Source of the DNA: Variovorax ginsengisoli
Lineage (GTDB): Bacteria; Pseudomonadota; Gammaproteobacteria; Burkholderiales; Burkholderiaceae_C
Direction of reading: 5' to 3'
Assembly: GCF_030486595.1 (NCBI RefSeq)
Contig: NZ_JAUJZH010000040.1
Location: 1-64,000 of the forward strand
DNA length: 64,000 nt
Below, piece after piece: positions 14,283 through 45,956 of the stretch (its first letter is position 1; every line of letters begins with the position of its first letter). Below the pieces are notes generated by a model. It did not search any database and was not told where the DNA came from. It worked only from the letters and a program-made list of their open reading frames with translations. The translations under genes and the position numbers were made by a program.

Positions 14283-14362
14283 GGCGGAGTTGATCGCATG
14301 GATTGATTGCATCGGTACCTGTAGATGAACGCATGAAGCGTGCCGGCCCTACGGGTGATGGA

Positions 14363-15105: not shown

Positions 15106-15119
15106 CGGCGGCGGCTGCC

Positions 15120-17211: not shown

Positions 17212-17213
17212 CC

Positions 17214-19948: not shown

Positions 19949-19972
19949 ATCGCAACCCGTACGGAGAACCCC

Positions 19973-20257: not shown

Positions 20258-20290
20258 ACACTCCCACTGCTTCACATCCGAAAGAACATC

Positions 20291-28586: not shown

Positions 28587-28605
28587 ACGTAACAGTAATG
28601 ACTTT
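28579..28605. promoter_or_regulatory. LysR-type operator between regulator and mdlC
   Basis: AAAGTCAT (28579-28586) and ATGACTTT (28598-28605) form a perfect eight-base inverted repeat with an 11-base spacer, giving the T-N11-A core of LysR boxes. It covers the regulator's start codon and lies about 107 bases before mdlC. Confidence 0.55.
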
Positions 28606-28711
28606 TGCTCGAAAAGGCAATTTTCAAGGAGGCCGCGAGATTCCACACTTCAGGCATCGAGACAAGCGTTGGGACGTTCCCCAGCGCACAGCCAGAAAGT
28701 GAGAGCGCGAA

Positions 28712-30331
28712 ATGACCGGACCAGGACCGCACGCCGTCGCCGAGACGGCCCAGCAACCCACCAGCATTACCGTTCGCGACGCAGTGTTCGATCTCATGCG
28801 CCGCTTCGGCATGACCTCCGTGTTCGCGAATCCGGGGTCGACCGAACTGCCAATGTTTCGGGACTTTCCCAGCGACTTTCGCTATGTACTTGGGTTGCAG
28901 GAGGCCAGCGTCGTCGGCATGGCCGATGGCTACGCTCAAGCAACCCGCAATGCTTCCTTCGTGAACTTGCATTCGGCCGCGGGTGTCGGCAATGCAATGG
29001 GCAATATCTTCACGGCGCACAAGAATCGCACGCCGATGGTCATCACGGCCGGTCAGCAGGCGCGCTCGATCCTCCCGTTCAATCCGTACCTTTCCTCCGC
29101 GCAGGCTACAGAACTGCCGAGGCCCTACGTGAAATGGAGCATCGAGCCAGCGCGTGCCGAAGACGTCCCGTTGGCGATTGCTCGGGCGTACTACATTGCG
29201 ATGATGCCGCCGTGCGGCCCGGTGCTGGTTTCGGTGCCCGTCGACGATTGGGACCGGGCGGCTGAATTGGTGCCGGCGCGAGTTGTCAGTACCGAATTGC
29301 GTCCTCAGCCTGCCGTCCTTGCGCAGATCGCTGATGCAATAGGCGCAAGCGATCGACCTGCAATCGTTGTGGGCGCCGCGATCGACCGCGACAACGCGTG
29401 GGACGAGGTCGTCGCGCTAGCTGAAGCACACAATGCCCGCGTGTGGGTTGCACCGATGTCGGGCCGTTGCAGTTTCCCGGAAGACCACAGGTTGTTTGCC
29501 GGGTTCCTGCCTGCAATGCGGGAACGGATCGTCGAACTGTTGGGCGGTCATGACCTGATCCTGGCCGTTGGTGCGCCTGCGTTCGCGTACCACATCGAGG
29601 GTGCGGGCCCGCACATTCCCGCTGGCGCGACTTTGTGCCAGCTGACCGAAGACCCGGACACCGCAGCCTGGGCGCCAGTCGGCATATCGGCCGTCGGAAG
29701 TATCCGTCTGGGTGTCCTCGATCTGCTGGCGCGCCCGCCGCAAAAAGATCGTCCCATTCCACCCGCGAAAAGCGCAGTACCGAGAGCAGCGCCTTCGTCG
29801 CTGATGTCCGTTGCATACGTGCTGCAGACGCTTGCGCAAGCAAAGGAACCCGATGACATCGTGGTCGAAGAAGCACCCAGCGCCCGTGCGGTGATGCAGT
29901 CCTACCTACCCATTACGCGCAGCGAAACCTTCTACACGATGGACAGTGGCGGCCTCGGATACGGCATGCCTGCGGCTGTCGGCGTCGCACTTGGCAAACC
30001 GGAAAGCCGCGTCATTTGCCTGATCGGCGATGGGTCGAGCATGTACTCCATACAGGCGCTTTGGAGTGCAGCCCAGAGCAAACTGCCGATCACATTCGTG
30101 ATCCTGAACAACCGGCGCTACGCAGCGCTACAAGAGTTCGCGCCGGTATTCGGGTTCTCTTCCACCGATGTTGTCCAGGGGACCGAATTGCCCGACATCG
30201 ACTTCCAGTCGCTGGCAAAGGGAATGGGTTGCGCCGCTTCCCGCGTCACCGCTCCCGGCGAACTGCGCGAGGTGCTTGATCGCGCCCTGGCCAGCAACGC
30301 CCCCTGCGTCGTGGAGGTTCGCGTCGCCTGA
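28712..30331 (+). CDS. mdlC: Benzoylformate decarboxylase (ThDP-dependent)
   Basis: The product is 539 residues. It decarboxylates benzoylformate or its 4-hydroxy form to the aryl aldehyde. Key residues of the family are present: the ThDP-activating glutamate E64 (GLQEAS), S43 in NPGSTELPMF, H87 in NLHSAAGVGNAMG and the second histidine in APAFAYHIEG. The ThDP/Mg motif is GDGSSMYSIQALWSAAQ...NNRRY. The length matches Pseudomonas MdlC (about 528). It opens an operon-like run with the aldehyde dehydrogenase 70 bases downstream and sits under the divergent LysR regulator. Confidence 0.9.
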   Translation: MTGPGPHAVAETAQQPTSITVRDAVFDLMRRFGMTSVFANPGSTELPMFRDFPSDFRYVLGLQEASVVGMADGYAQATRNASFVNLHSAAGVGNAMGNIFTAHKNRTPMVITAGQQARSILPFNPYLSSAQATELPRPYVKWSIEPARAEDVPLAIARAYYIAMMPPCGPVLVSVPVDDWDRAAELVPARVVSTELRPQPAVLAQIADAIGASDRPAIVVGAAIDRDNAWDEVVALAEAHNARVWVAPMSGRCSFPEDHRLFAGFLPAMRERIVELLGGHDLILAVGAPAFAYHIEGAGPHIPAGATLCQLTEDPDTAAWAPVGISAVGSIRLGVLDLLARPPQKDRPIPPAKSAVPRAAPSSLMSVAYVLQTLAQAKEPDDIVVEEAPSARAVMQSYLPITRSETFYTMDSGGLGYGMPAAVGVALGKPESRVICLIGDGSSMYSIQALWSAAQSKLPITFVILNNRRYAALQEFAPVFGFSSTDVVQGTELPDIDFQSLAKGMGCAASRVTAPGELREVLDRALASNAPCVVEVRVA

Positions 30332-30400
30332 CTGCTCCCACCTCTCGATTTCACGCCTATCCGATTCCCACATTCAAATCACCAGCCGGAGACAGAAGCC

Positions 30401-31849
30401 ATGAAGATTTCGATGTTGATCAACGGCGAGCCAACCCAAGCTCGCAACGGCGCCACCTTCGAGCGACGCAATCCGCTCGACGGCAGTGTCGCCACTATCG
30501 CACCCGCAGCCACCGCGGAAGACGCTGTCGCTGCCGTTGAGGCCGCCGCCACGGCTTTCAAGGCCTGGTCGCGCACCGGCCCGAGCGAACGCCGCGCGCT
30601 GCTGATGAAGGCCTCACAGGCGCTGGAAGCCAAGGCCGAGGCATTTGCAGCAGCCGTCGCTTCCGAGACGGGTGCCTCAGCGATCTGGGCGGGCTTCAAC
30701 GTTCACCTTGCGGCTGGCATGTTGCTCGAGGCCGCGTCGCTGACAACTCAGATCAGTGGCGAAATCATCCCCTCGGACGTTCCGGGCAGCCTCGCGATGG
30801 GCGTGCGTCAGCCTGCGGGCGTCGTCCTGGGCATTGCCCCCTGGAATGCGCCTGTGATCCTTGCGGTGCGCGCCATTGCAACACCTCTGGCTTGCGGGAA
30901 CACCGTGGTGCTGAAAGGAAGTGAAATCTGTCCGGCCACCCACGGCCTGATCATCGAAGCGTTGCAGGAAGCTGGTCTGCCCAAGGGCGTCGTGAACTTT
31001 GTTACCAATGCGCCGGCGGACGCAGCTGCCGTGGTCGAAGCGATGATTGCGCATCCAGCCGTGCGGCGCGTCAACTTCACCGGGTCGACCCACGTCGGGA
31101 AGCTCATTGCCGCGACCTGTGCCAAGCACCTGAAGCCAGTGGTGCTTGAGCTCGGTGGCAAGGCACCATTGGTCATCCTGGACGATGCTGATGTCGACGC
31201 AGCCGTCAATGCGGCCGTCTTCGGTGCATTCGCCAATTCGGGCCAGATCTGCATGTCAACCGAGCGCATCGTCGTCGACAAGAGCATTGCTGACGAATTC
31301 GTTGCGAAGCTCGGCGCGCGCGCATCGAGTCTGCCGCTCGGTGACCCGCGCCTCGGCCCGGTGGTCCTCGGCTCCGTAGTGGACATGAGCACGGCGAAAC
31401 GCTGCAACGATCTGATCGACGATGCGATCGCCAAGGGCGCGACGCTCGTGACGGGCGGGAAGGCGAACGACACGCTGATGCCAGCGACACTGCTCGACCA
31501 TGTCACCGCCGACATGCGCATCTTCCGAGAGGAAGCGTTTGGCCCGGTGAAAGGCATCGTGCGCGTCAGTGGCGTCGACGAGGCGGTGGCTTGCGCCAAC
31601 GACAACGAGTACGGCCTGGCAGCCGCTGTTTTTGGCCGTGACATTGCGCGGGCCATCCAGGTGGCCGGACGCATCGAGTCCGGGATTTGCCATGTAAACG
31701 GCCCGACGGTGCACGACGAAGCGCAGATGCCGTTCGGCGGCGTCAAGGGAAGTGGGATCGGGCACTTCGGCGGCAAGGCTGGCGTGGACGCATTCACCGA
31801 ACTGCGCTGGATGACTGTGCAGACAACACCGCGTCACTATCCCTTCTAA
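30401..31849 (+). CDS. Aryl-aldehyde dehydrogenase (benzaldehyde/vanillin/salicylaldehyde type)
   Basis: The product is 482 residues of the NAD(P)-dependent aldehyde dehydrogenase family. The coenzyme region is GIAPWNAPVILAVRAIATPLA and the glycine motif is FTGSTHVGK. The general-base glutamate is in LELGGKAPLVIL and the catalytic cysteine in ANSGQICMSTERI. The 'CHVNGPTVHDEAQMPFGGVK' segment is typical of the vanillin/salicylaldehyde/benzaldehyde branch. It would oxidise the aldehyde made by MdlC to benzoate or 4-hydroxybenzoate. Confidence 0.88.
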   Translation: MKISMLINGEPTQARNGATFERRNPLDGSVATIAPAATAEDAVAAVEAAATAFKAWSRTGPSERRALLMKASQALEAKAEAFAAAVASETGASAIWAGFNVHLAAGMLLEAASLTTQISGEIIPSDVPGSLAMGVRQPAGVVLGIAPWNAPVILAVRAIATPLACGNTVVLKGSEICPATHGLIIEALQEAGLPKGVVNFVTNAPADAAAVVEAMIAHPAVRRVNFTGSTHVGKLIAATCAKHLKPVVLELGGKAPLVILDDADVDAAVNAAVFGAFANSGQICMSTERIVVDKSIADEFVAKLGARASSLPLGDPRLGPVVLGSVVDMSTAKRCNDLIDDAIAKGATLVTGGKANDTLMPATLLDHVTADMRIFREEAFGPVKGIVRVSGVDEAVACANDNEYGLAAAVFGRDIARAIQVAGRIESGICHVNGPTVHDEAQMPFGGVKGSGIGHFGGKAGVDAFTELRWMTVQTTPRHYPF

Positions 31850-31933
31850 CAACTCGGTGCTTTCTGGCGCACACCGACCGCGTCATTGCGGTCGGATTGG
31901 ACCGGTGCGTCCTCAAATTCCAAGGAGACAACA

Positions 31934-32941
31934 ATGCGCTTGATTCACTCTCGTGCACCGGCGACGGGCCCCCGCGGCCGGAACGCCAGTGTTGTGTTGG
32001 CTGCCATCATTGCGTTGGCTTTGCCCACCGCAGCCTTCTCCCAAGCATGGCCCGCGAAGCCTGTGAAGGTGGTGGTCAACTTCCCTCCCGGCGGTGCCGC
32101 AGACCAGATTGCACGATCCCTGGCGCAGCCGCTGCAGGAAGCGCTAGGCCAGCCGGTGGTCGTCGAGAACAAGAGCGGTGCCGGCGGCAATATTGGCGGC
32201 GAAGCTGTGGCAAAAGCGGCGCCCGATGGCTACACCCTGTTGATGAGCTCTGGCGGCATGGTGTCCGTCAATCCGCACATCTATCCCAAGATGCCGTTCG
32301 ATCCCGCCAAGGATCTGGTGCCAGTGGCCTCGGCGGCGCGCGTGCTGGTTTTCCTGGTGACGCAGCCTGCCTTCCCTGCCAAAGACGCCAAGGGCTTCCT
32401 GGCTCATCTCAAGGCAAACCCGGGCAAGCTTTCGTTTGGCTCGCCAGGCAATGGCAGCTCGCCTCACCTCGCAGCCGAGATGATGAAGTCGCAAGCCGGC
32501 GTTTTTGCAACGCATGTGCCATACCGGGGCGCCGCACCTGCTCTGACGGACTTGTTGGCTGGCCAGCTGGACTTCCTGTTCGACCCGGGTGTTGCGATAC
32601 CGCACATCAAGGCGGGCAAGGTCAAGGTTCTTGCCGTCGGCAGCCTCAGGCGATCTCCGCTGTTTCCCGACGTGCCGACGCTGGACGAGGCAGGGCTCAA
32701 AGGCTTCGATGCGGATACTGTGTTTGGCTTCTACGCACCCGCAGGTACGCCAACTCAAGTCATCGCTCGATTGAATCTCGAGATCAACAAGGCCCTCGCG
32801 CTGCCCGGCCCACGCGAGCGCATTGCAGCCCTCGGCGGCGAAGCTGCACCTATGACGCCGGAACAGTTCCGAGACAAGGCGCTCGAGGACGGAAAGCGAT
32901 TTGGCAAGGTCATTCGCGAGCAAAAGATCGTCGGGGACTGA
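31934..32941 (+). CDS. Bug-family tricarboxylate-type substrate-binding protein
   Basis: The product is 335 residues; AAGGAGAC precedes the ATG at 31934. A signal peptide (VVLAAIIALALPTAAFSQA) is followed by the Bug/TctC fold with 'VKVVVNFPPGGAADQIARSL', GQPVVVENKSGAGGN and 'FGSPGNGSSPHLAAEMM'. It is a periplasmic receptor for a carboxylate. No TctA/TctB membrane genes lie in the window, so it is an orphan receptor, common in beta-proteobacteria. Position suggests an aromatic acid such as mandelate or benzoylformate. Confidence 0.88.
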   Translation: MRLIHSRAPATGPRGRNASVVLAAIIALALPTAAFSQAWPAKPVKVVVNFPPGGAADQIARSLAQPLQEALGQPVVVENKSGAGGNIGGEAVAKAAPDGYTLLMSSGGMVSVNPHIYPKMPFDPAKDLVPVASAARVLVFLVTQPAFPAKDAKGFLAHLKANPGKLSFGSPGNGSSPHLAAEMMKSQAGVFATHVPYRGAAPALTDLLAGQLDFLFDPGVAIPHIKAGKVKVLAVGSLRRSPLFPDVPTLDEAGLKGFDADTVFGFYAPAGTPTQVIARLNLEINKALALPGPRERIAALGGEAAPMTPEQFRDKALEDGKRFGKVIREQKIVGD

Positions 32942-34197
<1,256 letters not shown>

Positions 34198-34358
34198 GTC
34201 CATGCAGAACCGCCCGTGCAGAGGCGGACTGCGTCCAAAGCCATGCTCGGGTGGCATGACTATCTCTCATTAAAGCAATTTCCAGATAGTGCTCCAACTT
34301 TGACACTGCATTACCGAAGCGCGAGGCGACGCCGAAGCGCTCAACCAGGAGACAAGAC

Positions 34359-34463
34359 ATGATTAAACGAACCCCGTTGACGGCTGTCGCGCAATCCTTG
34401 CGCTCGCACCGCCCCCCTCAGCGTTCGATGCAAGCTACCTGTGACTCCGGAGCATGCGCATGA
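34359..34463 (+). CDS. 34-residue small open frame coupled to the MFS gene
   Basis: ATG at 34359 is preceded by CCAGGAGACAAGAC, a strong ribosome site. The peptide begins MIKRTPLTAVAQSLRSHRPP and ends CDSGACA, with a TGA at 34461-34463 that overlaps the transporter's ATG at 34460 (ATGA). The overlap suggests a leader peptide for translational coupling. It could also be the stump of a deleted Bug-type signal peptide. No homology is recognised. Confidence 0.4.
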   Translation: MIKRTPLTAVAQSLRSHRPPQRSMQATCDSGACA

Positions 34464-35842
34464 CCGCCCAAGCAATCCCCTTCAGGGGCAATGCCGACAT
34501 CGGTCGTTTGCTCGACGATGGCGCCTACACAACCATGCAAAAGGTAGTGGTCTTTCTGGCAGCCATGTCCATCGTGATGGACGGCTTCGATGGCCAACTC
34601 ATCGGCTTCGCGATTCCGCTCATGATCAAGGAATGGGGCATCACCCGCAGCGCCTTCGCACCGGCGGTGGCCGCGGGCCTGATTGGCATGGGGATTGGCA
34701 GCGCTTGCGCGGGTCTCTTCGCTGACCGCTTCGGCCGTCGGATGGCAGTCATTGCAAGTGTTCTTGTGTTTGGTTCAGTCACTTGTGCCATCGGTTTCGC
34801 ACCGGACGTCCTGACTGTCGCCGCACTCCGGTTTGTTGCCGGTCTAGGCATCGGGGGTGCGCTGCCGAGTTCGACTACGGTCACGGCGGAGTTCACCCCG
34901 GCGCGACGCAGAACACTGGCGGTCACGGCAACGATCGTCTGCGTACCGCTCGGCGGCATGCTCGCTGGATTGTTCGCTGCGGAAATCCTTCCGGCCTTCG
35001 GCTGGCGCGGCCTGTTCATGATCGGTGGAAGCTTTCCGATTGCTCTGGCCGTCATTCTTCTGTTCACGCTGCCTGAGTCGCCCCGCTTTCTCGCACGCCA
35101 TCCGGCGCGCTGGAGTGAGTTGGGCAAGCTGCTGGGCCGCATGAATCGTCCGATGGCTGCCGACGTGACCTACAGCGACGCTGCAGAACAGGTCGTCGAG
35201 AAACGCGCTGGTTTCGGTGCGCTCTTCTCAGGTGGCTTGGCAGGTGACACGCTGGCGACCTGGGCGGCCTTCTTCATGTGTCTTACCGCCGTCTACAGCG
35301 CCTTCAGCTGGTTGCCGACCATGCTCGCTTCCGAAGGCCTGTCGATGGCTGTTGCGGGCTCGGGCTTGACTGCCTACAACCTCGGAGGCGTCGTTGGCGC
35401 CTTGGTTTGCGCCGTTGCGATCACCCGTTTCGGTTCACGTTGGCCATTGGTCCTGTGCTGCGCGGGTGCGGCAGCAAGTGCGTTCGCCTTGCAAACCTTG
35501 AATGTGGGACGCGATACGAACCTGCTGATCTTCGGCTTCGGTGTGCATGGCATGTTCGTGAATGCGGTGCAGTCCACAATGTATGCGCTGTGCGCCTTCA
35601 TGTACCCCACGAGTGTCAGGGCGACCGGGACGGCTTCCGCCCTTGCCTTCGGACGGCTGGGCGCCATCCTCAGTGCCTTTGCAGGCGCTGCGGTGATCAC
35701 GGCGGGCGGCGCTACGGCCTATCTGACGCTGCTTGGTTCGGCGATGGTCTTCGCGATGGTTGCCCTCCTGGCCGTCAGGCGCCACATCCCGAAGCGCGCG
35801 GTACTGCTGCGCCCGAGCCAAGCGGCGACGGCCACGAACTAA
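34460..35842 (+). CDS. MFS transporter, aromatic acid:H+ symporter (AAHS) type
   Basis: The product is 460 residues with about 12 transmembrane helices. The AAHS signature DGFDGQLIGFAIP is in helix 1, the MFS loop GLFADRFGRRMAV lies between helices 2 and 3, and 'PESPRFLARHP' follows helix 6. AAHS members (PcaK, BenK) import benzoate, 4-hydroxybenzoate, protocatechuate and mandelate-like acids. GGAG seven bases before 34460 favours that ATG over the one at 34454. Its place after pobA fits uptake of a hydroxylated aromatic acid. Confidence 0.88.
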   Translation: MTAQAIPFRGNADIGRLLDDGAYTTMQKVVVFLAAMSIVMDGFDGQLIGFAIPLMIKEWGITRSAFAPAVAAGLIGMGIGSACAGLFADRFGRRMAVIASVLVFGSVTCAIGFAPDVLTVAALRFVAGLGIGGALPSSTTVTAEFTPARRRTLAVTATIVCVPLGGMLAGLFAAEILPAFGWRGLFMIGGSFPIALAVILLFTLPESPRFLARHPARWSELGKLLGRMNRPMAADVTYSDAAEQVVEKRAGFGALFSGGLAGDTLATWAAFFMCLTAVYSAFSWLPTMLASEGLSMAVAGSGLTAYNLGGVVGALVCAVAITRFGSRWPLVLCCAGAAASAFALQTLNVGRDTNLLIFGFGVHGMFVNAVQSTMYALCAFMYPTSVRATGTASALAFGRLGAILSAFAGAAVITAGGATAYLTLLGSAMVFAMVALLAVRRHIPKRAVLLRPSQAATATN

Positions 35843-35897
35843 CCGCCAGGCCTGTTCACGCCTATCTCATCGTGCAACTCAGCAATCGAAACAGATC

Positions 35898-36821
35898 ATG
35901 AGAATCTCTATCGTCGGTGCGGGAGCTATGGGCTCCATGTTCGGGGGCCTGCTGGCCGAATGCGACAACGACATCACGCTGATCGACGTCAACGATGCGC
36001 ACGTTAGCGCAATCCACGCTGACGGCCTACGCCTGACTACCGATAGCGGCGATCGGCATATCAAGGCGCTCAAGATTTGCCGGCCGGAAGAGGCCACTGA
36101 CATCCCAGAGCTACTCGTCGTGTTCACCAAGACGCTACACACGCACGCCGCACTCTCGGGTGTGAAACATCTGATCGGACCTGATGTGCATTTGGTGAGC
36201 TTGCAGAACGGCTTGGGCAATGTTGAGGCGATCTCCGAATTCGTTGATACGGAGCGCGTTCTCATCGGTGTGACCACGTGGCCGGCCGACTTGGTTGGAC
36301 CGGGTCACGTGCATTCTCACGGCAAAGGCGTCGTGCGGCTCATGGCAGCCGATGGGATCGCTCGACCGATAGTCACATTGGTTTCCGAAACGCTCTCACG
36401 TGCTGGCCTAGAGTGCACGTCGGATGCCACTGTGTGGGCTGCAATCTGGGAGAAGGTTGCGTTCAACGCTGCACTCAACAGCATCTGCGCTGTTTCCGGA
36501 TGCACCGTTGATCAGCTCGGTTTGGTATCTGACGGTCGCCGCCTTGCAGACGAGGTCGTCTCGGAGGTGCTTTCGGTCGCACAACGCCTTGGCATTAACG
36601 TGAATCCTGACATGTGCAAGACCAACGTCGCAGGCGCCATCGCACAGCACAAAGGACACAAGCCCTCGATGCTGCAGGATATTGTTGCGGGACGTCGCAC
36701 CGAGATCGAGGCCATCAATGGTGCTGTGGTCGCTGCGGCCAGGCGCCTCGAGATGAAGCTACCCACTACCGAGACGCTGTTGTCGCTCGTGCGCCTTGCG
36801 GAAGCTCGTGCTTTCGCCTGA
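35898..36821 (+). CDS. Ketopantoate-reductase-family dehydrogenase, possible D-mandelate dehydrogenase
   Basis: The product is 307 residues. The Rossmann motif is GAGAMGSMFGGLLAE. Family active-site positions are visible: N in VSLQNGLGN, K in WEKVAFNAALNSICA, and the S and E in PSMLQDIVAGRRTEIEAING. The family contains PanE but also NAD-dependent D-2-hydroxyacid enzymes, including bacterial D-mandelate dehydrogenases. In this operon, beside mdlC and an FMN-type 2-hydroxyacid dehydrogenase, oxidation of D-(4-hydroxy)mandelate to the keto acid is more plausible than pantothenate synthesis. The specific substrate is inference. Confidence 0.75.
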   Translation: MRISIVGAGAMGSMFGGLLAECDNDITLIDVNDAHVSAIHADGLRLTTDSGDRHIKALKICRPEEATDIPELLVVFTKTLHTHAALSGVKHLIGPDVHLVSLQNGLGNVEAISEFVDTERVLIGVTTWPADLVGPGHVHSHGKGVVRLMAADGIARPIVTLVSETLSRAGLECTSDATVWAAIWEKVAFNAALNSICAVSGCTVDQLGLVSDGRRLADEVVSEVLSVAQRLGINVNPDMCKTNVAGAIAQHKGHKPSMLQDIVAGRRTEIEAINGAVVAAARRLEMKLPTTETLLSLVRLAEARAFA

Positions 36822-36866
36822 CATGACGCGTTTGGTCCGATACCTCAATCCACTAGGGGACAAATC

Positions 36867-37841
36867 ATGAAACTCTCGAAGATCTTTGCCATCGCGTGCA
36901 CGTGCCTGTCGGTCGCCGTGACCGCCGCCAGCGCCTCCGATGCGTATCCGACCAAGCCCATCCGATGGGTAGTTGCATACTCGGCCGGGGGCGGTTCCGA
37001 CGCACTGGCACGCGCGGTCGGCGCTCAGCTCTCCACACAGCTCGGCCAATCGGTCCTGATAGACAACCGGCCTGGCGGCGCAACCGTGATTGGGGCCGAC
37101 GCGGTGGCCAAGTCGGCAGGAGACGGCTACACCGTCCTCACGGCAGACAATGGCACTCTGATATTCAACACGGCGCTTTTCAAGAAGCTGCCCTACGACC
37201 CGAACAAGGACTTCGCACCTGTCGGGCTGATGGCCAAGTTTCCTCTCGTGCTGGCAGTCAACCCCAGTTCGGGGTATGGAAGCGCGAAGGAACTCATCGA
37301 AGCCATGCGAAAGCAACCCGGCAAGCTCAGCTATGCGACGCCGGGCGTCGGCAGTCCTCACCATCTGGCAATGGAGATGCTCAAGGAGCGCGCCAAGGTC
37401 GACGCCGCGCACGTCGCGTACAAGGGTGCAGCCCCGGCCATTCAGGACGTGGTGGGCGGTCAACTCCCGATCATGGTGGTCGACACGGCGGCGGGCATGC
37501 AGATGATGAAGGCCGGCAAGCTCAAGCCGCTGGCGACCTTCTCGAAGACCCGGCTGCCGTCGATGCCGGATGTTCCGACCCTGATGGAACTTGGCTACAC
37601 CGACATCGAAGCCGCTGCCTGGCAAGGCCTGGTCGTGCCGGCATCCACGTCCAAGGACGTGATTGCAAAGTTGAGTACCGAACTGCAAAAGGCCATCGCA
37701 TCTCCGGCCATCCAGACGCAGTTCGCAACCATGGGCCTCGAAGCTACGCCGAGCGACGCCGCCGGAATGGCCAGGCATTGGAGCGATGAATCGAAGTACT
37801 GGCCCAAGCTCATTCGTGACCGGCAGATTACACTCGACTGA
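36867..37841 (+). CDS. Second Bug-family substrate-binding protein
   Basis: The product is 324 residues with a signal peptide (IFAIACTCLSVAVTAASA) and the Bug fold (IRWVVAYSAGGGSDALARAV, GQSVLIDNRPGGATVIGA, YATPGVGSPHHLAMEML). It is only moderately similar to the first receptor in the cluster, so the two probably bind different acids. GGGGAC lies upstream of the ATG at 36867. No TctAB partner is in the window. Confidence 0.87.
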   Translation: MKLSKIFAIACTCLSVAVTAASASDAYPTKPIRWVVAYSAGGGSDALARAVGAQLSTQLGQSVLIDNRPGGATVIGADAVAKSAGDGYTVLTADNGTLIFNTALFKKLPYDPNKDFAPVGLMAKFPLVLAVNPSSGYGSAKELIEAMRKQPGKLSYATPGVGSPHHLAMEMLKERAKVDAAHVAYKGAAPAIQDVVGGQLPIMVVDTAAGMQMMKAGKLKPLATFSKTRLPSMPDVPTLMELGYTDIEAAAWQGLVVPASTSKDVIAKLSTELQKAIASPAIQTQFATMGLEATPSDAAGMARHWSDESKYWPKLIRDRQITLD

Positions 37842-37862
37842 TCCAAACATGGCCTTGGGATT

Positions 37863-39020
37863 GTGATCGACACCATGCGCATCAACACGGAAGACTTTCG
37901 CCGCCAGGCGCGGAAAAGCCTTCCGCGCTTTGTCTTCGACTACATCGAAGGAGCGGCCGACGACGGCCATTGTCTTCGTCGCAATCTGAGCGATCTGGCG
38001 GCCGTCGAACTTACGCCACGCATTTTGCGTGACACCACAGCAGTCGACACATCGATCGAGGTATTCGGCCGGAAGTGGGCGCTGCCCTTCGGCATTGCTC
38101 CGACCGGGTTGAATGGCCTCGTTCGGCCTAGGGGCGACGGACTGCTTGCGACCGCTGCGGCGCGCAACGGCATTTTATTCGCGCTGTCTACTGCGTCGAA
38201 CATGCGGCTGGAAGACGTGCGTGCCGGAGCTCCAGATGGCATGCATTGGATGCAGCTCTACGTGATGCACAGGGACATGGCGGGACAAATCGTCGAGCGC
38301 GCGGCGCGCTCGGGCTATGAAGCGCTGGTGTTGACGGTCGACGTCCCGGTCAGTGGCAATCGGGAACCAGACTTGCGCAACGGTTTTCGCATGCCTTTCA
38401 AGCCGACCGCCAAGCTGGCCTGGGACGTGGTGACGCACCCGAGGTGGTCGATGCGCATGCTGCCTAATGGCGCGCCAGATTTCGCCAACTTGACAACGGC
38501 AGGCGGCGACGCGGGTTCGGCCAATGTGCAGGCCGCGCTTCTTGCCCGGGCGATGGATCGCTCAGTCGTCTGGGACACGCTCGCGTGGTTGCGCGGGCTG
38601 TGGAGAGGCCCACTGTTGCTGAAAGGAGTCCTCCACCCCGACGACGCTCGATTGGCTTTGGACCATGGCGTCGACGGCTTGATCGTTTCCAATCACGGGG
38701 GGCGCCAGAATGACGCTTCGCCGTCGGCGATTTCAGCGTTGCCACGGGTGGTCGCGGCGATCGACGGTCGGATTCCTGTGTTCATGGACGGCGGGATCCG
38801 GCGCGGCGGCGACATTGCCAAAGCCCTGGCGCTAGGTGCGAGTGCGGCCTTCCTGGGTCGTCCTGCGCTCTACGGCTTGGCAACCGACGGGGCTGAAGGT
38901 GCCGAGGCGGTGATCAAGCTGCTTGCAGCTGAACTGCTGCGCACCATGACCCTCCTCGGGGCGACGTCAGTGTCCGCTTTGCCCGGCGCGCTCGAGGGCG
39001 CAAGCGGCAACTTCACCTAG
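37863..39020 (+). CDS. FMN-dependent alpha-hydroxyacid dehydrogenase, probable L-mandelate dehydrogenase
   Basis: The product is 385 residues from GTG at 37863 (an ATG at 37875 is equally possible). It has the TIM-barrel features of the lactate/mandelate/glycolate oxidase family: 'LPRFVFDYIEGAADD', APTGLNGLVRPRGDG, the 'MQLYVMHR' and 'LVLTVDVPVSGNREPDLRNG' segments and the active-site SNHGGRQNDASPS with His and Arg. 'FMDGGIRRGGDIAKALALGA' is the phosphate-binding end. The segment around 190-230 is consistent with a membrane-associated MdlB-type enzyme. It would make benzoylformate from L-mandelate. It ends four bases before the convergent AraC gene. Confidence 0.85.
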   Translation: MIDTMRINTEDFRRQARKSLPRFVFDYIEGAADDGHCLRRNLSDLAAVELTPRILRDTTAVDTSIEVFGRKWALPFGIAPTGLNGLVRPRGDGLLATAAARNGILFALSTASNMRLEDVRAGAPDGMHWMQLYVMHRDMAGQIVERAARSGYEALVLTVDVPVSGNREPDLRNGFRMPFKPTAKLAWDVVTHPRWSMRMLPNGAPDFANLTTAGGDAGSANVQAALLARAMDRSVVWDTLAWLRGLWRGPLLLKGVLHPDDARLALDHGVDGLIVSNHGGRQNDASPSAISALPRVVAAIDGRIPVFMDGGIRRGGDIAKALALGASAAFLGRPALYGLATDGAEGAEAVIKLLAAELLRTMTLLGATSVSALPGALEGASGNFT

Positions 39021-39024
39021 GCTG

Positions 39025-40020
39025 TCATTCCAGCGGACCGCGCCCCCCTGCGACGCGATAGGCACGCGGCGACATCTCAAACCTTTGACGAAATGCGCGG
39101 CTGAAGTGGCTCAGGTCGTTGAAGCCATGGGCCATCGCGACCGCTGAGATCCCGAGCGATTGGCGCGCCGGATCGCGCAAATCGCTTGCCGCACGTTCCA
39201 GGCGCCGGCGCCAGATGTAGCGCGCGAGGGACGTATTCTCGGCTTCGAACAACTTGTTGATATATCGCGGCGACAGATTGAGCGCGGCACTGACCATGGT
39301 CGCGTCTAGGTCCCAAGCGTCGAGGTTGCGTTCCAGGAAGTCCTTCACCCGGACAAGTGCCACTGCGCGGTATTCGGAGAGTGGCAACGGCGAGTTGAGG
39401 GTTGCCTCGTCGAGCGCCGACGCGAGAAGCTCCGTGAAATTGCGCGCAACTTTCTCGGACGCAACAGCGTCGAGGGACGGCAGTTGCTGATTCAAGCCGA
39501 CGAGGTAGCCGAAAAGGATCGGGCACATCTGGCCCGCTTCCGTCAGGCTGCGTGCCGTGATGCGATGAACACCCGCAGAACGGTGAGACAACGAGGCGAG
39601 TGGGACTTTGACGGTGATCAGCTTGAATGCGTCGTCAAAACGCAAGTAATAGGGTCGCTGGGCGTCGCATACCGCACCGTCGCCCGGCTTCAACACCACA
39701 GAGCGGCCGTCTTGCTCGGCCAGTGCTACGCCGGCAAGGATGAAGTTGAAAATCAGGGATTCGTCACCTGAGCGCGAGATCCCCGCAGGCAACCGCGCGA
39801 CGCGGTGAGGCGACGCTTCGATGCGCGCAACGCTGAGCGCACTGAGGCGAGTCCCGCTGACAGAAGCTTCAAACGGATTCTTGCCGTCAGGTCGGCATTC
39901 GAGGTCGACGAGAGCCTTGCACACCACCTCCTGCCAGAACTCGAACTTGTCGGTTTGGTTCAGACCGGCAGTGGAAGCGTCGATGACTCGTGGGGAGGGT
40001 TCTGCAGTAAGGGGTTGCAT
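39025..40020 (-). CDS. AraC-family regulator with AraC_binding_2-type sensor domain
   Basis: The product is 331 residues from the ATG at 40020; a further upstream start at 40065 is possible. The N-terminal cupin-like sensor (DKFEFWQEVVCKALVDLECR, LKPGDGAVCDAQRPYYLRFD) resembles FeaR/NitR-type regulators. The C-terminal double helix-turn-helix is typical (SAALNLSPRYINKLFEAENT, AHGFNDLSHFSRAFRQRFEM). It is divergent from the ABC transporter-nitrilase operon, an arrangement also known for nitrilase genes controlled by AraC-type NitR in Rhodococcus. A nitrile or aryl acid is a likely inducer. Confidence 0.87.
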   Translation of the reverse strand: MQPLTAEPSPRVIDASTAGLNQTDKFEFWQEVVCKALVDLECRPDGKNPFEASVSGTRLSALSVARIEASPHRVARLPAGISRSGDESLIFNFILAGVALAEQDGRSVVLKPGDGAVCDAQRPYYLRFDDAFKLITVKVPLASLSHRSAGVHRITARSLTEAGQMCPILFGYLVGLNQQLPSLDAVASEKVARNFTELLASALDEATLNSPLPLSEYRAVALVRVKDFLERNLDAWDLDATMVSAALNLSPRYINKLFEAENTSLARYIWRRRLERAASDLRDPARQSLGISAVAMAHGFNDLSHFSRAFRQRFEMSPRAYRVAGGRGPLE

Positions 40021-40114
40021 TGCGCACGACCAGGACTTGGCTCGCACATTGATGGTGCTGAGCAAGACCGAAACGGATCAAAACCAGAAGCTCTAGTGAT
40101 TTTCGACCATTCGA

Positions 40115-40144
40115 TGCAAGGTTGATGCCAAACAAACCCTTGCA
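40115..40144. promoter_or_regulatory. Dyad in the araC-ABC transporter gap
   Basis: TGCAAGG (40115-40121) and CCTTGCA (40138-40144) form a perfect inverted repeat with a 16-base spacer in the 270-base divergent gap. It may be the AraC-type operator or an RNA hairpin in the transporter leader. Confidence 0.3.
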
Positions 40145-40290
40145 TTTGTCGCTGACGGCACGGTTGGAACGGTCGGTCTAGGGCCGTTTGAGACAAGTTT
40201 CCAGGCTGATGCAACAAAGTTTTTTGGCCCTCAAAGGCCGACCATTGCTCTCAGGGCCTTGTGAAGGCCTCTACTTCAAAGGAGAGCACT

Positions 40291-41604
40291 GTGACCACTG
40301 CAAACGACACCCAAACTGCCACCGTCGCGGGGCTTTCATCGAGTCGCCGGGACCTCCTGCGTGGCGCCGCCGCGCTGACGGCAGTCGCCGCCCTGGGTCA
40401 GGCCAGCCTGGCATGGGCGGCCGACAAGGACACGATCAAGATCGGCTACATCAGCCCCAAGACGGGACCGTTCTCGCCCTTTGCGGAAGCCGACGATTTC
40501 ATACTCGACCAGGTCCGCAAGACCTTGTCCGATGGGCTTGTCGTCGGCGGCAAAAAATACAAGGTCGAAATCCTTGCGCGAGACGACCAAAGCAGCCCCG
40601 ATCGCCAATCGAACCTGGCCGCCGAACTCATCAACAAGGAAAACATCGATCTGATGCTGGCGCAGGTGGCGATCGGTCCAAACGCTTCCCAGCAGTGTGA
40701 ACTCAACGGCGTGCCATGCCTTTCAACGGTCGGTCCTTGGCAAGCATGGATGTTTCCTCTGAAGGGCGATCCATCCAAGGGCTTCAAGAGCGCTTTCCAT
40801 TTCTTCTGGGGTCTGGAAGACATCGCCGACGTCTATCTCGACATCTGGCAAGGTGTGCCGTCGAACAAGGTGATCGGATCGGCATTCAGCAACGATGTGC
40901 CGGGGAACGCGATGGGCGACATGAAGCTTGGCATGCCAGCCGCTTTCACCAAGGCCGGATACAAGATCGTCGACATTGGACGATTCCCGGTCGGTGCTGA
41001 TGACTTCTCGTCGTACATCCAGGCCTTCAAGAAGGAAAATGTTGAGATCGTGACGGGCCTTTTCAATCCTCCTGAATGGGCTTCGTTCGTCAAGCAATCT
41101 GCACAGATGGGCTTCAAGCCGAAGGCGGCCACGGTGGCGAAAGCGCTGCTGTTTCCCGGCGGGGTTGCCGCCCTCGGCCCGCGCGCCGATGGCATGTCAA
41201 CGGAGATTTGGTGGACGCCCGCCTATCCGTTCAAGTCGAGCCTGACCGGCCAGACCGCAAAGCAGTTCGCCGACGCGTATACAGCCGCCACCAAGCGCGA
41301 GTGGACGCAACCCTTGGGTGTCGTGCACGCCCTGTTCGAAACAGGCATTCAGGCCCTCAAGGCGAGCGGTGATCCCAAGGATCCCGTCAAGGTCGCCAAC
41401 GCGCTGCGCGTGATGAAGCACGACACGATCATAGGCAAGCTCGACTTCACCTCCAGCGGCATCAAGAACGTGTCGAAGATGCGCGTGGTCGGCGGTCAAT
41501 GGCGCATTCTCAACGGTGGAAAGCCAGAGCTCTTCATCACCAACAACAAGACGGCGCCCGAGATCCCGGTTCAGCGCAAGTTCGAACTGCTGGCTATCGC
41601 CTGA
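40291..41604 (+). CDS. ABC transporter substrate-binding protein (branched-chain/aromatic type), Tat-exported
   Basis: The product is 437 residues. GTG at 40291 is chosen because AAAGGAGA lies seven bases upstream; an earlier GTG at 40261 lacks one. A twin-arginine signal (SSRRDLLRGAAALTAVAALG) is cleaved near AWAAD. The mature type I binding fold shows 'IKIGYISPKTGPFSPFAEAD', 'RDDQSSPDRQSNLAAELINK' and 'GFKPKAATVAKALLFPGGVA'. Members with this build often bind aromatic compounds or amides. It is the first gene of a five-gene transporter set ending in the nitrilase. Confidence 0.9.
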   Translation: MTTANDTQTATVAGLSSSRRDLLRGAAALTAVAALGQASLAWAADKDTIKIGYISPKTGPFSPFAEADDFILDQVRKTLSDGLVVGGKKYKVEILARDDQSSPDRQSNLAAELINKENIDLMLAQVAIGPNASQQCELNGVPCLSTVGPWQAWMFPLKGDPSKGFKSAFHFFWGLEDIADVYLDIWQGVPSNKVIGSAFSNDVPGNAMGDMKLGMPAAFTKAGYKIVDIGRFPVGADDFSSYIQAFKKENVEIVTGLFNPPEWASFVKQSAQMGFKPKAATVAKALLFPGGVAALGPRADGMSTEIWWTPAYPFKSSLTGQTAKQFADAYTAATKREWTQPLGVVHALFETGIQALKASGDPKDPVKVANALRVMKHDTIIGKLDFTSSGIKNVSKMRVVGGQWRILNGGKPELFITNNKTAPEIPVQRKFELLAIA

Positions 41605-41615
41605 CGGGCAACACC

Positions 41616-42359
41616 ATGTTGCTCGAACTGCGTGACACCAGCAAACGCTACGGCGACATGGTGGTGATTCCCAAACTCTCGCTGTCTGTGGAGGACGGTG
41701 AATTCATCGGCGTCATCGGCCCGAACGGCGCCGGAAAAAGCACGATGTTCGGGCTGATCTCCGGCAGCACTGCGTGCGACAGCGGAAGCGTATTCCTGGA
41801 CGGCAAGGACATCACCAGTTTCGATGCCGCCGAGCGCTGCAAGGCCGGCATCGGGCGCACCTTCCAGATCCCGCAACCCTTCGAAGGCATGACGGCCTTT
41901 GAGAACGCGCTGGTCGCCGCCACGTTCGGCAATGGGCGGCACGGGCATGCGGCGCAGGCCGCCGCCGTCGACGCTATAGAGGGCTGCGGACTTGAAGCTG
42001 TGGCCGACAAACTCGCGGGAACCTTGACGCTTCTGCAGCGCAAACGGCTCGAACTGGCGAGAGCGCTTGCCACGCGTCCGCGCTTGTTGCTCCTCGACGA
42101 AGTTGCCGGGGGGCTGACGGATGACGAGATGCAGCAGTTGCTGCAGTTGATCGTGACGATTCATCAAGGCGGCGTGACCATTCTGTGGATCGAGCATTTA
42201 GTTCACGCCCTCGTATCAGCCGCTGATCGGCTCGTCGTTCTTGCAAGCGGCGCCGTGATCTGCGATGGCGATCCGAAAACGGTGATGGCCGACCAGATGG
42301 TGCGCGACACCTATCTGGGATCGGACATTGAGGAGGAACTCGACCATGCTGCGCACTGA
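41616..42359 (+). CDS. LivG-type ABC transporter ATP-binding protein
   Basis: The product is 247 residues. Walker A is GPNGAGKST, the Q-loop region is GIGRTFQIPQPFEGMT and Walker B is LLLLDEVAGGL, followed by the switch histidine region ILWIEHL. The signature is degenerate (LTLLQRKRLELARAL), as is common in LivG. It starts 11 bases after the binding-protein gene, and its end overlaps the next ATP-binding gene by 14 bases. Confidence 0.9.
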   Translation: MLLELRDTSKRYGDMVVIPKLSLSVEDGEFIGVIGPNGAGKSTMFGLISGSTACDSGSVFLDGKDITSFDAAERCKAGIGRTFQIPQPFEGMTAFENALVAATFGNGRHGHAAQAAAVDAIEGCGLEAVADKLAGTLTLLQRKRLELARALATRPRLLLLDEVAGGLTDDEMQQLLQLIVTIHQGGVTILWIEHLVHALVSAADRLVVLASGAVICDGDPKTVMADQMVRDTYLGSDIEEELDHAAH

Positions 42360-43038
42360 CCGACTCGACGCCTATTACGGATTGTTCCAGGCGCTGTTCA
42401 GTTTCAGCTTCCAGGTGTTTCCCGGCGAAACGGTGGCGTTGATCGGCTCGAACGGTGCCGGCAAGTCCACCTTGCTGCGTTCGATCGTCGGCTCGGTGCG
42501 AACCCGTCGCGACGGCGTCGTGCTCGACGACCAGCCCGTCGGCGGCGAGTCCGAGCGCAAGCAACTTAGCCGCGGCATCGCGCTGGTACCCGAAGGGCGT
42601 CGACTCTTCGCGAGCCTGACCGTGCTGGAGAATCTGCAACTCGCGGCGCGCAACGGCCGAGCCGGTGCCTGGACGATCGACCGCCTGATGCGCGAGTTCC
42701 CGGTGATGCAAGCCTTCCAGCATCGGCCGGCGACAGCCTTGTCCGGTGGCCAGCAGCAGCTGGTCGCGCTGTCGCGCGCACTGGTCTGCAATCCGGCGTA
42801 CCTGCTGTGCGACGAGATCTCGCTGGGGCTTTCACCCGTGGCGGTCAACGAGGTCTACGACCTGCTGGGGCGGGCCCGCAACGACGGGTTGGCCGTGGTG
42901 CTGGTCGAGCAGAACGTCAAGCGCGCCCTGGCGGAATCCGATCGCTACTACTGCATACAAAAGGGCAAGGTTGTGCTGGAGGGCGCATCGGAATCGGCCG
43001 ACCACGCGCAAGTGGCGCAAGCCTACTTCGGGATCTGA
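42346..43038 (+). CDS. LivF-type ABC transporter ATP-binding protein
   Basis: The product is 230 residues, starting MLRTDRLDAYYGLFQ, with GAGGAGG upstream inside the previous gene. Walker A is GSNGAGKSTLL, the signature is ALSGGQQQLVALSRALV and Walker B is YLLCDEISLGLSP, followed by VVLVEQN. The position of the usual EP (glutamate) after Walker B is EI. It pairs with the LivG-type subunit. Confidence 0.9.
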   Translation: MLRTDRLDAYYGLFQALFSFSFQVFPGETVALIGSNGAGKSTLLRSIVGSVRTRRDGVVLDDQPVGGESERKQLSRGIALVPEGRRLFASLTVLENLQLAARNGRAGAWTIDRLMREFPVMQAFQHRPATALSGGQQQLVALSRALVCNPAYLLCDEISLGLSPVAVNEVYDLLGRARNDGLAVVLVEQNVKRALAESDRYYCIQKGKVVLEGASESADHAQVAQAYFGI

Positions 43039-43039
43039 A

Positions 43040-43906
43040 ATGACAACATTCATTGAAACGCTGCTCGGTGGACTGATGCTGGGTGCGCTGTATGCCCTTT
43101 TCGGGCTCGGCCTGAGCCTGAGCCTGGGCGTGATGAAGATGATCAACATCGCGCATGGCGACCTGATCGTTCTTGGTGCCTACCTGTGCGCAACCGTGAT
43201 GCAGCTGGCTGGCATCGGACCTTTCGTGTCACTTGTCGCGGTGGTGCCGATCATGTTCTTCATCGGCTACGTCCTGCAACGCGTGCTGCTCAATCGGGTG
43301 GTCGGCAAGGGCACGCTGTCGCCGTTGCTGCTCACCTTCGGCCTTTCGATCGTCCTGCAGAACGTGCTGCAGGAAACGTTCACCGCCGACACCCGAAGCC
43401 TGCAGGCTGGTGACCTGTCGGTTCGCGGCTTCGACATCGCGGGCGTGTCGGTCGGGCTGCTGCCTCTGGTCTCGACGCTGATCAGCGTGCTGATCTTCGC
43501 GGGAACCAGTTGGCTGATCGGCCATTCGCACCTCGGCCGCCAGACGCGGGCCGTGGCGGACGATCCCGGCACGGCGCGCCTGGTGGGGGTGGACGATCGG
43601 AACTTCTTCGCGCTCGTTACCGGATTCATCCTGGCCGTGATCGCGCTCGCCGCCGTCATGTACGGGATCCGCACGCCTTTCTCTCCCACCGCGGGCCCGG
43701 AGCGCCTGCTGTACTCGTTCGAGGCGGTGGTCCTCGGTGGGCTCGGCAACATCTGGGGCACCTTCATCGGCGGCCTTATCATCGGTGTCGCGCAACTGTT
43801 CGGCGCCAAGGTCTCTTCGGGGTTGGGTCCCTTCTTCGGCCATCTGGTCTTCTTGGTCGCGCTGCTGGCACGGCCCCAGGGCTTGCTCGGAAAGGCGCAG
43901 CGATGA
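43040..43906 (+). CDS. LivH-type ABC transporter permease
   Basis: The product is 288 residues with about eight transmembrane helices. '[20 protein letters not shown]' followed by '[16 protein letters not shown]' is the standard LivH start, and '[20 protein letters not shown]' the standard EAA-like loop. It begins one base after the LivF-type stop and overlaps the next permease gene by four bases (ATGA). Confidence 0.9.
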
Positions 43907-44910
43907 ACGCCGGCACCACCTTGCAGCCCCCCGTTGCCATGCGCGCAAGAACCGGAAGTGCGTCGATTGCGATCGCATTGCTCGTGCTGTGCGTGTTCTT
44001 CGCAGCCGCGCCTTGGTTCACCAGCTTTGCGACGCAGCGCCTGATGGTGGAAGTCTTCACCGTCTTCGCCATCGCCCTGGCGTGGAACCTGCTGGCCGGC
44101 TACGGCGGGCTCGTGGTCGTCGGCCACCAGATGTTCGTTGGCGTGGGTGCGTATGCGCTGTTCGCGCTTTCGAACAAGCTGCAACTCAATCCATGGCTGA
44201 TGTTGCCGCTCGCGGCGGTCGCCGCCGGGCTCTTCGCGATCGTGAGCGCCTATCCGATGTTCCGGCTCAGCGGCGCTCATTTTGCGGTCGGCACCTGGGT
44301 GCTGGCCGAAATGCTGAGGATCCTGACGCTGAATGGCGAATGGCTCGGCGCGGGCGGCGGCATGCCGCTGGAAGCATTGGGCAGCTTCGATCGCTGGACA
44401 CGCAACGCCGGTGTCTACTGGGCCGCGCTCGTTGTCGGCGTCGGGACACTGGTGGTCGCGCGCAGCATCCTGCGAGGGCGACTGGGCCTGGCGCTCATGA
44501 GCGTGCGCGACTCGGAAGCAGCTGCTGCGGCCTCCGGGGTGTCAATCCGCAGGGCCAAGCTGGCGCTGTGGGTCATCGCGGGCTCGATCACCGGCGTGGC
44601 AGGCGCAGTGGCCTACATGAACACATTGCAAGTCACGCCCGACGCGACGTTCTCGCTCAACTGGTCGGCGGCAGCGATCTTCATCGCGGTGCTCGGTGGC
44701 ATCGGGACGCTGGAAGGACCGATCCTCGGCACGCTCCTCTACTTCCTCCTGCGCGAGAACTTCGCCTCGTACGGCTCGTGGTATTTCATCGGGCTGGGCT
44801 CTCTCGCGATCCTCACGATGGTCTTCGCTCCTGGTGGCGCCTGGAGTCTCATCGCGCGCAAGTGGCCTGTCGATCCCTTCGGTGTGAGACGCGACATGCC
44901 GCGCAAGTAA
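43903..44910 (+). CDS. LivM-type ABC transporter permease
   Basis: The product is 335 residues with about ten transmembrane helices. LivM hallmarks are '[20 protein letters not shown]', '[20 protein letters not shown]' and '[20 protein letters not shown]', then '[20 protein letters not shown]'. It completes an importer with both Liv permeases and both ATPases. The nitrilase gene follows after 32 bases, which ties the transported compound to nitrile metabolism. Confidence 0.9.
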
Positions 44911-44942
44911 TTCCACTGTTCTTCATCACGCAAGGAAACCCA

Positions 44943-45956
44943 ATGTCTGAAACTGCATTCAAGATCGCTGTCGTGCAGGCTGCCCCTGTCTTCCTAGACG
45001 CCGCCGCTTCCACGGAAAAGGCTATTGGCCTGATCACCGACGCAGGCGCAAATGGGGCCAAGCTGCTGGCTTTTCCCGAGGTGTTCATCCCTGGCTACCC
45101 TTGGTGGCTTTGGCTCGGCACGCCGGCTTGGGGCATGCAGTTTGTCTCGCGCTACCACGCAAACTCATTGCGCGCGGATGGTCCGGAACTAGCGTCCATC
45201 GCGGCGGCTGCCGCTGCGGCGAACATCAATGTGGTGATCGGCTTCTCAGAAATCGATGGTGGATCGCTCTACATCAGCCAGGCCTTGATCAGCGACAAGG
45301 GCGAGATGGTCTTCAAGCGTCGCAAGCTCAAACCGACGCACGTAGAGCGCACACTTTTCGGAGAGGGAGATGGTTCAGATTTTCAGGTGGTCGACACCAG
45401 TGTTGGTCGCCTGGGTGCACTCTGCTGCGCCGAGCACATCCAGCCGCTTTCGAAGTACGCGATGTACTCAATGCACGAACAGGTCCATGTCGCTTCGTGG
45501 CCGTCGTTCACGCTGTACCGTGGCACCGCCTATGCGCTGGGCCACGAAGTGAATCTCTCCGCAAGTCAGATCTATGCGCTGGAAGGCGGCTGCTTCGTCT
45601 TGCATTCGAGTGCCATCACGGGAAAGGACATGTTTGACGTCATGTGCGATACGCCCGAAAAAGCGCTCCTGCTGAATTCCGACGGCGGCAAGCCCGGCGG
45701 TGGCTACTCGATGATTTTTGGCCCCGATGGCCAGCCGTTGGTGGAGCACCTGCCGCAGGATCAGGAAGGCATTCTCTACGCCGACATCGATCTTTCCACC
45801 ATTGCCGTTGCAAAGGCGGCTTACGACCCGTCGGGGCACTATGCGCGTGGCGACGTGGTCAGGTTGATGGTCAATCGCAGCCCGCGCCGCACCAGCATCA
45901 ATTTTGGAGAGGGCTCGACAGAAGGTGCGCAGTGGACGGAGGCGAAAGCTGACTGA
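44943..45956 (+). CDS. Arylacetonitrilase-type nitrilase
   Basis: The product is 337 residues. The catalytic triad is E46 ([15 protein letters not shown]), K128 ([12 protein letters not shown]) and C162. The residue after the catalytic cysteine is alanine (CCAEHIQPL), where most nitrilases, including the one at 15 kb, have tryptophan. Alanine at this place is known from the Pseudomonas fluorescens EBC191 arylacetonitrilase, which hydrolyses mandelonitrile. '[20 protein letters not shown]' is typical of that branch. The operon with an ABC importer and the nearby mandelate genes support (4-hydroxy)mandelonitrile as substrate, giving mandelate and ammonia. Confidence 0.88.

Follow-up and report, generated by a model that had tools for sequence, protein, structure and literature searches.

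The mandelate pathway of Pseudomonas putida is encoded by mdlABCD. The nitrilase of Pseudomonas fluorescens EBC191, with mandelate-pathway genes nearby, was reportedly first described by Kiziak in 2005, and the mandelonitrile hydrolase bll6402 of Bradyrhizobium japonicum USDA110, which we take to lie among mandelate-type genes, is said to have been reported by Zhu in 2007. According to an excerpt of PMC8955678, the EBC191 nitrilase lies near mandelate-pathway genes and was suggested to serve plant mandelonitrile, while bll6402 was found by genome mining, as cited in the available part of PMC3599355. Here we analysed a 64,000-nucleotide stretch of Variovorax ginsengisoli DNA (contig NZ_JAUJZH010000040.1, positions 1 to 64,000; hereafter the window), assigning families by gene calling and by NCBIfam and Pfam profile scans across its length. 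Positions 28712-45956 are best explained as two putative transcription units that make up an exchangeable and presumably mobile catabolic block. Taken as a whole, it is likely that the block serves the breakdown of aromatic cyanohydrins and mandelates, with 4-hydroxymandelonitrile or 4-hydroxymandelate as the most likely natural substrate and unsubstituted mandelonitrile as a probable second.

The block resembles the EBC191 locus in placing an arylacetonitrilase near mandelate-pathway genes, and bll6402, by description, in encoding a mandelonitrile-hydrolase-type enzyme. With the P. putida pathway it shares the (S)-mandelate dehydrogenase, benzoylformate decarboxylase (BFD) and aldehyde dehydrogenase (ALDH) steps but, unlike that pathway, it contains a PanE-family dehydrogenase, the 4-hydroxybenzoate hydroxylase gene pobA, transporters and a nitrilase, and no block gene has a racemase as its best family in the NCBIfam and Pfam scans. 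This lack of a racemase, together with the two dehydrogenases of different families, also separates the block from EBC191, as do the hydroxybenzoate hydroxylase and Liv importer families, neither of which is mentioned for EBC191 in the excerpt of PMC8955678. Thus, nitrilase-mandelate clusters are already known from EBC191, and what is new here is the addition of pobA, a Liv importer and two dehydrogenases.

The nitrilase gene (44943..45956, plus strand) closes the block, and its product is identical to NitA of PDB entry 6zby at 182 of 301 aligned columns (60.5%). The numbering of 6zby NitA agrees with the EBC191 residues named in the accessible part of PMC6930498, which gives the roles of these residues in the EBC191 enzyme, and in this numbering the window nitrilase keeps the catalytic residues E48, K130, E137 and C164. 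Five of the six residues whose replacement alters mandelonitrile conversion are also identical (C163, A165, W188, N206 and H296), the sixth, T110, being Ser. Mandelonitrile hydrolases share 56-60% identity with bll6402 in table rows of PMC3599355, a range that relates to bll6402, our own identity figure being to 6zby only. Judged by these residues, the window nitrilase is of the EBC191 arylacetonitrilase or mandelonitrile-hydrolase type. It is preceded by a full Liv-type importer (40291-44910, all plus strand) consisting of a LivK-type substrate-binding protein (40291..41604; PF13458) and, by profile scans, LivG- and LivF-type ATPases (41616..42359 and 42346..43038) and LivH- and LivM-type permeases (43040..43906 and 43903..44910).

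The enzymes of the hydroxyacid unit, all encoded on the plus strand, match the remaining steps. BFD (28712..30331) passes the curated equivalog cut-off of NF005485 (855.5 versus 493 bits), finds 4q9d as its best PDB chain (457 bits; 421 for 1bfd) and retains the NPGS, LQEA and NLHSAAG motifs and the YH pair of 1bfd. The aromatic ALDH (30401..31849) is nearest to vanillin dehydrogenase 9ihb (635 bits) and salicylaldehyde dehydrogenase 6qhn (627 bits), and scores 308 bits against benzaldehyde dehydrogenase 3r64. The FMN-dependent 2-hydroxyacid dehydrogenase (37863..39020) has (S)-mandelate dehydrogenase 6bfg as its best single-domain full-length PDB match (322 bits over 7-373; 280 bits for 1huv); 7f22 and 7f20 total higher, but these tandem lactate oxidases owe their totals to four stretches added together. 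This enzyme shares the motifs PTGLNG, HPRWS and HGGRQ with 6bfg, the first and last of which we assume to have a functional role, and in both nearest match and motifs it resembles (S)-mandelate dehydrogenase. The second dehydrogenase (about 35898..36821, in a frame open already from 35733) belongs to the ketopantoate-reductase (PanE/ApbA) family (TIGR00745, 241 bits, cut-off 141) and matches 8wl1 (181 bits), 2ew2 (151) and 3wfi (134) far better than the E. coli-type PanE 1ks9 (46), although all four carry the same database label, 2-dehydropantoate 2-reductase. We take 3wfi to be a D-mandelate dehydrogenase, and the window enzyme is probably of the D-2-hydroxyacid (D-mandelate) type.

Two regulator genes that went unmentioned in a preliminary description of this DNA frame the two units: a LysR gene (27684..28646, minus strand), divergent from BFD across a 65-bp gap and marking the left edge of the conserved block, and an AraC/FeaR-like gene (39025..40020, minus strand; NF007243, 144 bits, below the cut-off of 199), divergent from the Liv operon. 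Gaps within the units are mostly short, with a maximum of 256 bp between pobA and the gene for an MFS-type aromatic acid transporter (34454..35842, plus strand). The nitrilase, BFD, ALDH, two 2-hydroxyacid dehydrogenases, Liv importer and two Bug receptors listed in that description were all recovered by profile searches, the Bug/TctC receptors (both PF03401, plus strand) lying at 31886..32941 (Bug1, whose presence varies among relatives) and 36867..37841. The assignment of the MFS protein to the AAHS group held in so far as TIGR00895 is its best family, although at 295.4 bits it scores under the cut-off of 418.55.

From these families a route can be proposed. The nitrile unit (AraC regulator, LivKGFHM and arylacetonitrilase) would take up an aromatic cyanohydrin or its acid, unless the cyanohydrin enters by diffusion, and the nitrilase would convert the cyanohydrin into the 2-hydroxyacid and ammonia. 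In the hydroxyacid unit, which may be controlled by the LysR regulator, the FMN enzyme would oxidise the (S) form and the PanE-family enzyme the (R) form, so that a racemase would be unneeded wherever both dehydrogenases are present; BFD would then decarboxylate the 2-oxoacid and ALDH would oxidise the resulting aldehyde. Relatives with a whole pobA could carry 4-hydroxybenzoate on to protocatechuate, and in the window's strain this final step may fall to a canonical pobA elsewhere in the genome, unless the break in the block's own copy (see below) is an assembly error. The order from nitrile through 2-hydroxyacid, 2-oxoacid and aldehyde to acid, as originally put forward, fits these families as well as the gene linkage among relatives.

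Searching named genomes for the FMN dehydrogenase returned 17 loci, six of which carry the block through to the nitrilase: five are from Variovorax, the window's genus (L001, from G088, Variovorax YR216; L004, G002; L005, G055; L007, G009; L008, G080), and one is from Ramlibacter (L003). Across the genus, 8 of 101 genomes, the window's own included, have a nitrilase ortholog with an identity of 88% or more, with Ramlibacter as a further case, and in an order-wide draw of 399 genomes the ortholog was found at E <= 1e-150 in the window's own genome only. Each of the nine clusters (the window's counted) has the nitrilase as the last gene of the block, beside hydroxyacid dehydrogenase and BFD genes in an EBC191-type arrangement; the pobA, Bug and PanE-family genes are variable. 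Since this gene order recurs in nine clusters, the arrangement is more than chance. BFD of at least 81% identity is present in 13 of the 101 genus genomes, and within the genus every nitrilase ortholog lies next to this type of BFD (8/8 genomes; Fisher p 6e-9, with no correction for relatedness).

These linkages bear on a quite improbable alternative, in which the nitrile and hydroxyacid units would be functionally separate neighbours, the nitrilase and Liv importer handling arylacetonitriles (4-hydroxyphenylacetonitrile or indoleacetonitrile, for example) while free (hydroxy)mandelate would be left to the hydroxyacid unit. Separate regulators would suit such a division, as would the preference of other arylacetonitrilases for phenylacetonitrile (Nit09) and the loci that hold, within the stretches covered, the hydroxyacid side without the Liv and nitrilase genes: L002, L006 and L013 have LysR, BFD, ALDH, MFS and FMN dehydrogenase genes, and G090 and G094 combine BFD and ALDH with an unbroken pobA, the PanE-family gene and the gene of the second Bug receptor but have no FMN dehydrogenase. 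Against it stand the exclusive pairing of the nitrilase with this BFD, the presence of the FMN dehydrogenase in all nine Liv-nitrilase clusters and the ability of EBC191-type nitrilases, according to excerpted sources, to hydrolyse mandelonitrile. A divergent cluster in G018 (L134, G018:C72:283001-302900, 7.6-19.2 kb) also argues against separate roles, because it again joins a nitrilase (61% identity) and BFD (46%), within 12 kb that further include AraC (32%), MFS (67%), ALDH (38%), FMN dehydrogenase (47%) and LysR (65%) genes. This cluster is an independent-looking version by sequence, indicating that the nitrilase-plus-mandelate scheme recurs in divergent form. At a further locus (L100, G004, at ~8.0 kb), only residues 4-168 of the FMN dehydrogenase are matched and the Liv and nitrilase genes are lacking, which resembles a deletion of the nitrile side.

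The preliminary description considered the route to protocatechuate complete within the window. This does not hold, because pobA is split into two plus-strand reading frames: although both match the family, a 5' part (33008..33643, profile positions 1-209, with the frame break near codon 208) overlaps by 4 bp with a 3' part in another frame (33640..34197, profile positions 211-391). Against TIGR02360 (cut-off 538.7) the pieces score 267 and 257 bits, and there is no single full-length match, whereas the six other pobA copies in same-genus nitrilase clusters are all full-length and over the cut-off (one of the eight same-genus genomes scored, G088, lacks pobA in the block). The block-type pobA is a single 396-amino-acid open reading frame (ORF) in 9/9 relatives examined, and ten checked positions, which we take to contact the substrate or FAD, are conserved throughout these nine. 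For the whole block-type PobA of L005 the nearest enzyme (589 bits) is a 4-hydroxybenzoate 3-monooxygenase with the label NAD(P)H, classical enzymes scoring ~470. The window as sequenced should therefore not carry the annotation of a complete route.

Compared with the nine relatives, dN/dS is 0.05-0.08 for the 5' piece and 0.03-0.05 for the 3' piece, with dS often near 1, and both pieces still look constrained in sequence, so that the break is either recent or an error in the draft assembly. That the split arose in sequencing or assembly, the organism itself having an intact gene, is quite possible, if short of probable, and would be compatible with the two-unit reading as well as with the separate units discussed above or an unsubstituted substrate (see below). 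Both pobA parts are conserved along their length, the draft assembly is in 86 contigs, and the conserved glycosyltransferase gene MSMEG_0565 on the same contig (18723-19948) also lies in two frames (profile positions 1-257, then 255-372), its longer piece still passing its own cut-off (331 versus 260 bits); this second frame-broken gene makes assembly errors more likely. Conversely, a whole paralog elsewhere would relax selection on the block copy, and the nearest Liv-nitrilase relatives have no pobA in the block, both of which speak against an error. We also considered that the two pieces might yield a functional PobA through translational coupling across the 4-bp overlap, which is unlikely, as 9/9 relatives have one ORF and the break sits between conserved positions 201 and 212.

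The lack of benzoate-degrading genes in the window had been used as an argument for a 4-hydroxylated substrate. In the genome, however, a canonical pobA lies on another contig (681 bits, cut-off 538.7) and boxB is found elsewhere (890 bits versus a cut-off of 499), so that either 4-hydroxybenzoate or benzoate could be consumed and missing benzoate genes in the window are no evidence on the substrate. The exclusion of benzoate as a product was thus rejected; BenA fell under its cut-off in the genome search. LigA is over its cut-off at three places in the genome, and cleavage by protocatechuate 3,4-dioxygenase was not retained as a candidate, because two of three PF00775 matches best fit catechol or chlorocatechol dioxygenase models, below cut-off. 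Another PobA-like monooxygenase, under the cut-off at 440 bits, was seen ~0.9 kb from a LigA-type match (G000:C22, ~100.4-102.7 kb; L049, L063, L122).

The proposal of a 4-hydroxylated substrate itself survives as likely, not proven. It is favoured by the pobA linkage and by the relationship of the ALDH: of the 13 genomes with this BFD type, 10 have pobA next to it, unbroken in the nine others than the window's, and pobA adjoins none of 15 lower-identity BFD loci examined (of 17 listed, the G018 locus being one of the other two), while the nearest relatives of the ALDH are hydroxy-benzaldehyde dehydrogenases. Several observations weigh against our assignments. On the substrate side, pobA is found in 7/9 nitrilase clusters, being absent from G088 and Ramlibacter L003, the window copy is broken, and the G018 cluster lacks pobA along with PanE-family and Liv genes, so that pobA is no necessary part of the scheme; the product could also be benzoate, as boxB accompanies the second, canonical pobA in 8/8 nitrilase-cluster genomes. 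The ALDH scores only 346 bits against the 4-hydroxybenzaldehyde dehydrogenase 9jw2, far under vanillin dehydrogenase. On the dehydrogenase side, the best NCBIfam model of the FMN enzyme is an L-lactate dehydrogenase (NF008398, 329 bits, under the cut-off of 376), the D-mandelate assignment of the PanE-family enzyme leans on that of 3wfi, and the PanE-family gene occurs in 8/9 nitrilase clusters, its absence from Ramlibacter meaning that the two-dehydrogenase scheme is not universal. As to the imported ligand, LivK has weak PDB sequence matches only (6 at E <= 0.001), some of which are presumably aromatic-acid binders, and its predicted model (pLDDT 38.8) is too low for use. Finally, BFD and mandelate dehydrogenases usually take both substituted and unsubstituted substrates, a breadth that prevents sequence from fixing the ring substitution.

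Most of the substrate-side points also suit a rather unlikely alternative, that the block serves unsubstituted mandelonitrile or mandelate of the prunasin or amygdalin type, yielding benzoate for the Box pathway encoded elsewhere, with PobA as a passenger being lost in this lineage. The constant presence of boxB, the broken window copy and the lack of pobA in the two closest Liv-nitrilase relatives (G088 and Ramlibacter) and in the G018 cluster would all be expected from this, and the EBC191 precedent, as far as the available excerpts go, is unsubstituted mandelate. A passenger is harder to reconcile with nine whole pobA copies adjoining the same BFD, with the constraint on the window pieces (dN/dS 0.03-0.08) or with an ALDH nearest to hydroxy-benzaldehyde dehydrogenases. 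We keep the 4-hydroxylated cyanohydrin or mandelate as the preferred substrate of the two-unit block. If this holds, the block would be a defined set of bacterial genes for growth on the dhurrin aglycone, dhurrin being the cyanogenic glucoside that sorghum makes. No bacterial gene set for the dhurrin aglycone was found among the open-access titles and abstract openings listed, a set that leaves most subscription journals outside and gives no proof of absence. The block also offers a hypothesis that can be tested on bacteria from the rhizosphere of cyanogenic plants, and two enzymes that probably cover the two mandelate enantiomers between them; its sequences may be useful in chiral hydroxymandelate chemistry.

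To compare the surroundings of the block, we aligned the window with 15 loci in 1-kb bins. G090 matches the window at 85-92% identity in the bins that run from LysR through the second Bug gene, at whose end the match stops; the exception is the bin holding Bug1, a gene missing from G090. Over the stretch that opens with the FMN dehydrogenase and closes with the nitrilase, identity is 82-86% to YR216 and 78-85% to Ramlibacter. The bins at 18-27 kb and 46-56 kb gave no match to the covered flanks of the 15 loci. Halves that match different relatives, and flanks without a match, suggest that the block occupies differing genomic sites and that its halves can be exchanged, and it has probably been passed between strains by transfer. 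G+C content is a weak sign of transfer, since the 52-64 kb region (0.629) is nearly as low as the block (0.618), the 4-22 kb region having 0.691. A tblastn search of PLSDB with the nitrilase returned 29 records, the best at 62.5% identity, and a plasmid origin was not supported, as the PLSDB annotation, itself incomplete, of three of these 29 regions (H1-H3) contains no mandelate genes. An IS110-family transposase gene (26335-27411) lies just outside the left edge of the block.

The window also carries a Nit1C cluster (MSMEG_0572 to MSMEG_0569; 14623..21574, plus strand), in which 7/8 genes as first called score over their NCBIfam cut-offs, the eighth being the frame-broken MSMEG_0565, and which ends 6.1 kb before the LysR gene of the block. 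According to the available part of PMC11049912, Nit1C is essential in Pseudomonas for cyanide assimilation through cyanohydrin hydrolysis; the window's Nit1C genes (14.6-21.6 kb) are distinct from the block and by sequence form a probable cyanide assimilation cluster, a separate nearby unit. A MocR-type regulator gene (12891-14312, minus strand) accompanies the cluster. The Nit1C marker TIGR04048 is present in 49/101 genus genomes, and its excess in nitrilase-cluster genomes is not significant (6/8 versus 43/93, p 0.12). Where both occur, the two nitrilases lie within 48 kb of each other in three of six genomes (29 kb in the window, 19 kb in G080 and 47 kb in G082) and on different contigs in the other three. 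A binomial estimate for this closeness is 5e-5, with the distance chosen after seeing the data and shared hot spots left out. The arrangements of Nit1C and block differ among the window, G080 and G082; the window genes of 21.7-27.4 kb have no match of at least 45% identity between the clusters of G080 or G082, and in G080 a Bug receptor 47% like Bug1 sits between the two. Rhizobium sp. RCAM05350 encodes a nitrilase with 57% identity to that of the window, ~4.5 kb away from genes of the Nit1C type.

As the block is near Nit1C more than once in the genus, the region as a whole might serve cyanogen utilisation, the block degrading the 4-hydroxylated cyanohydrin of dhurrin- or taxiphyllin-type glucosides in both enantiomers without a racemase and Nit1C salvaging the HCN released as the cyanohydrin decomposes. 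We regard this extended reading as unlikely; were it true, the host would recover the carbon as well as the nitrogen of a plant poison. Between the two clusters, an ORF at 21719-22900 gives short overlapping phosphotransferase and class-III aminotransferase matches and looks like the remnant of a larger gene, and to the right of the block a LysR-type protein (52496-53230) is, as called, without its DNA-binding N-terminus, matching the GcvA model from position 52, perhaps through a wrong start or a break.

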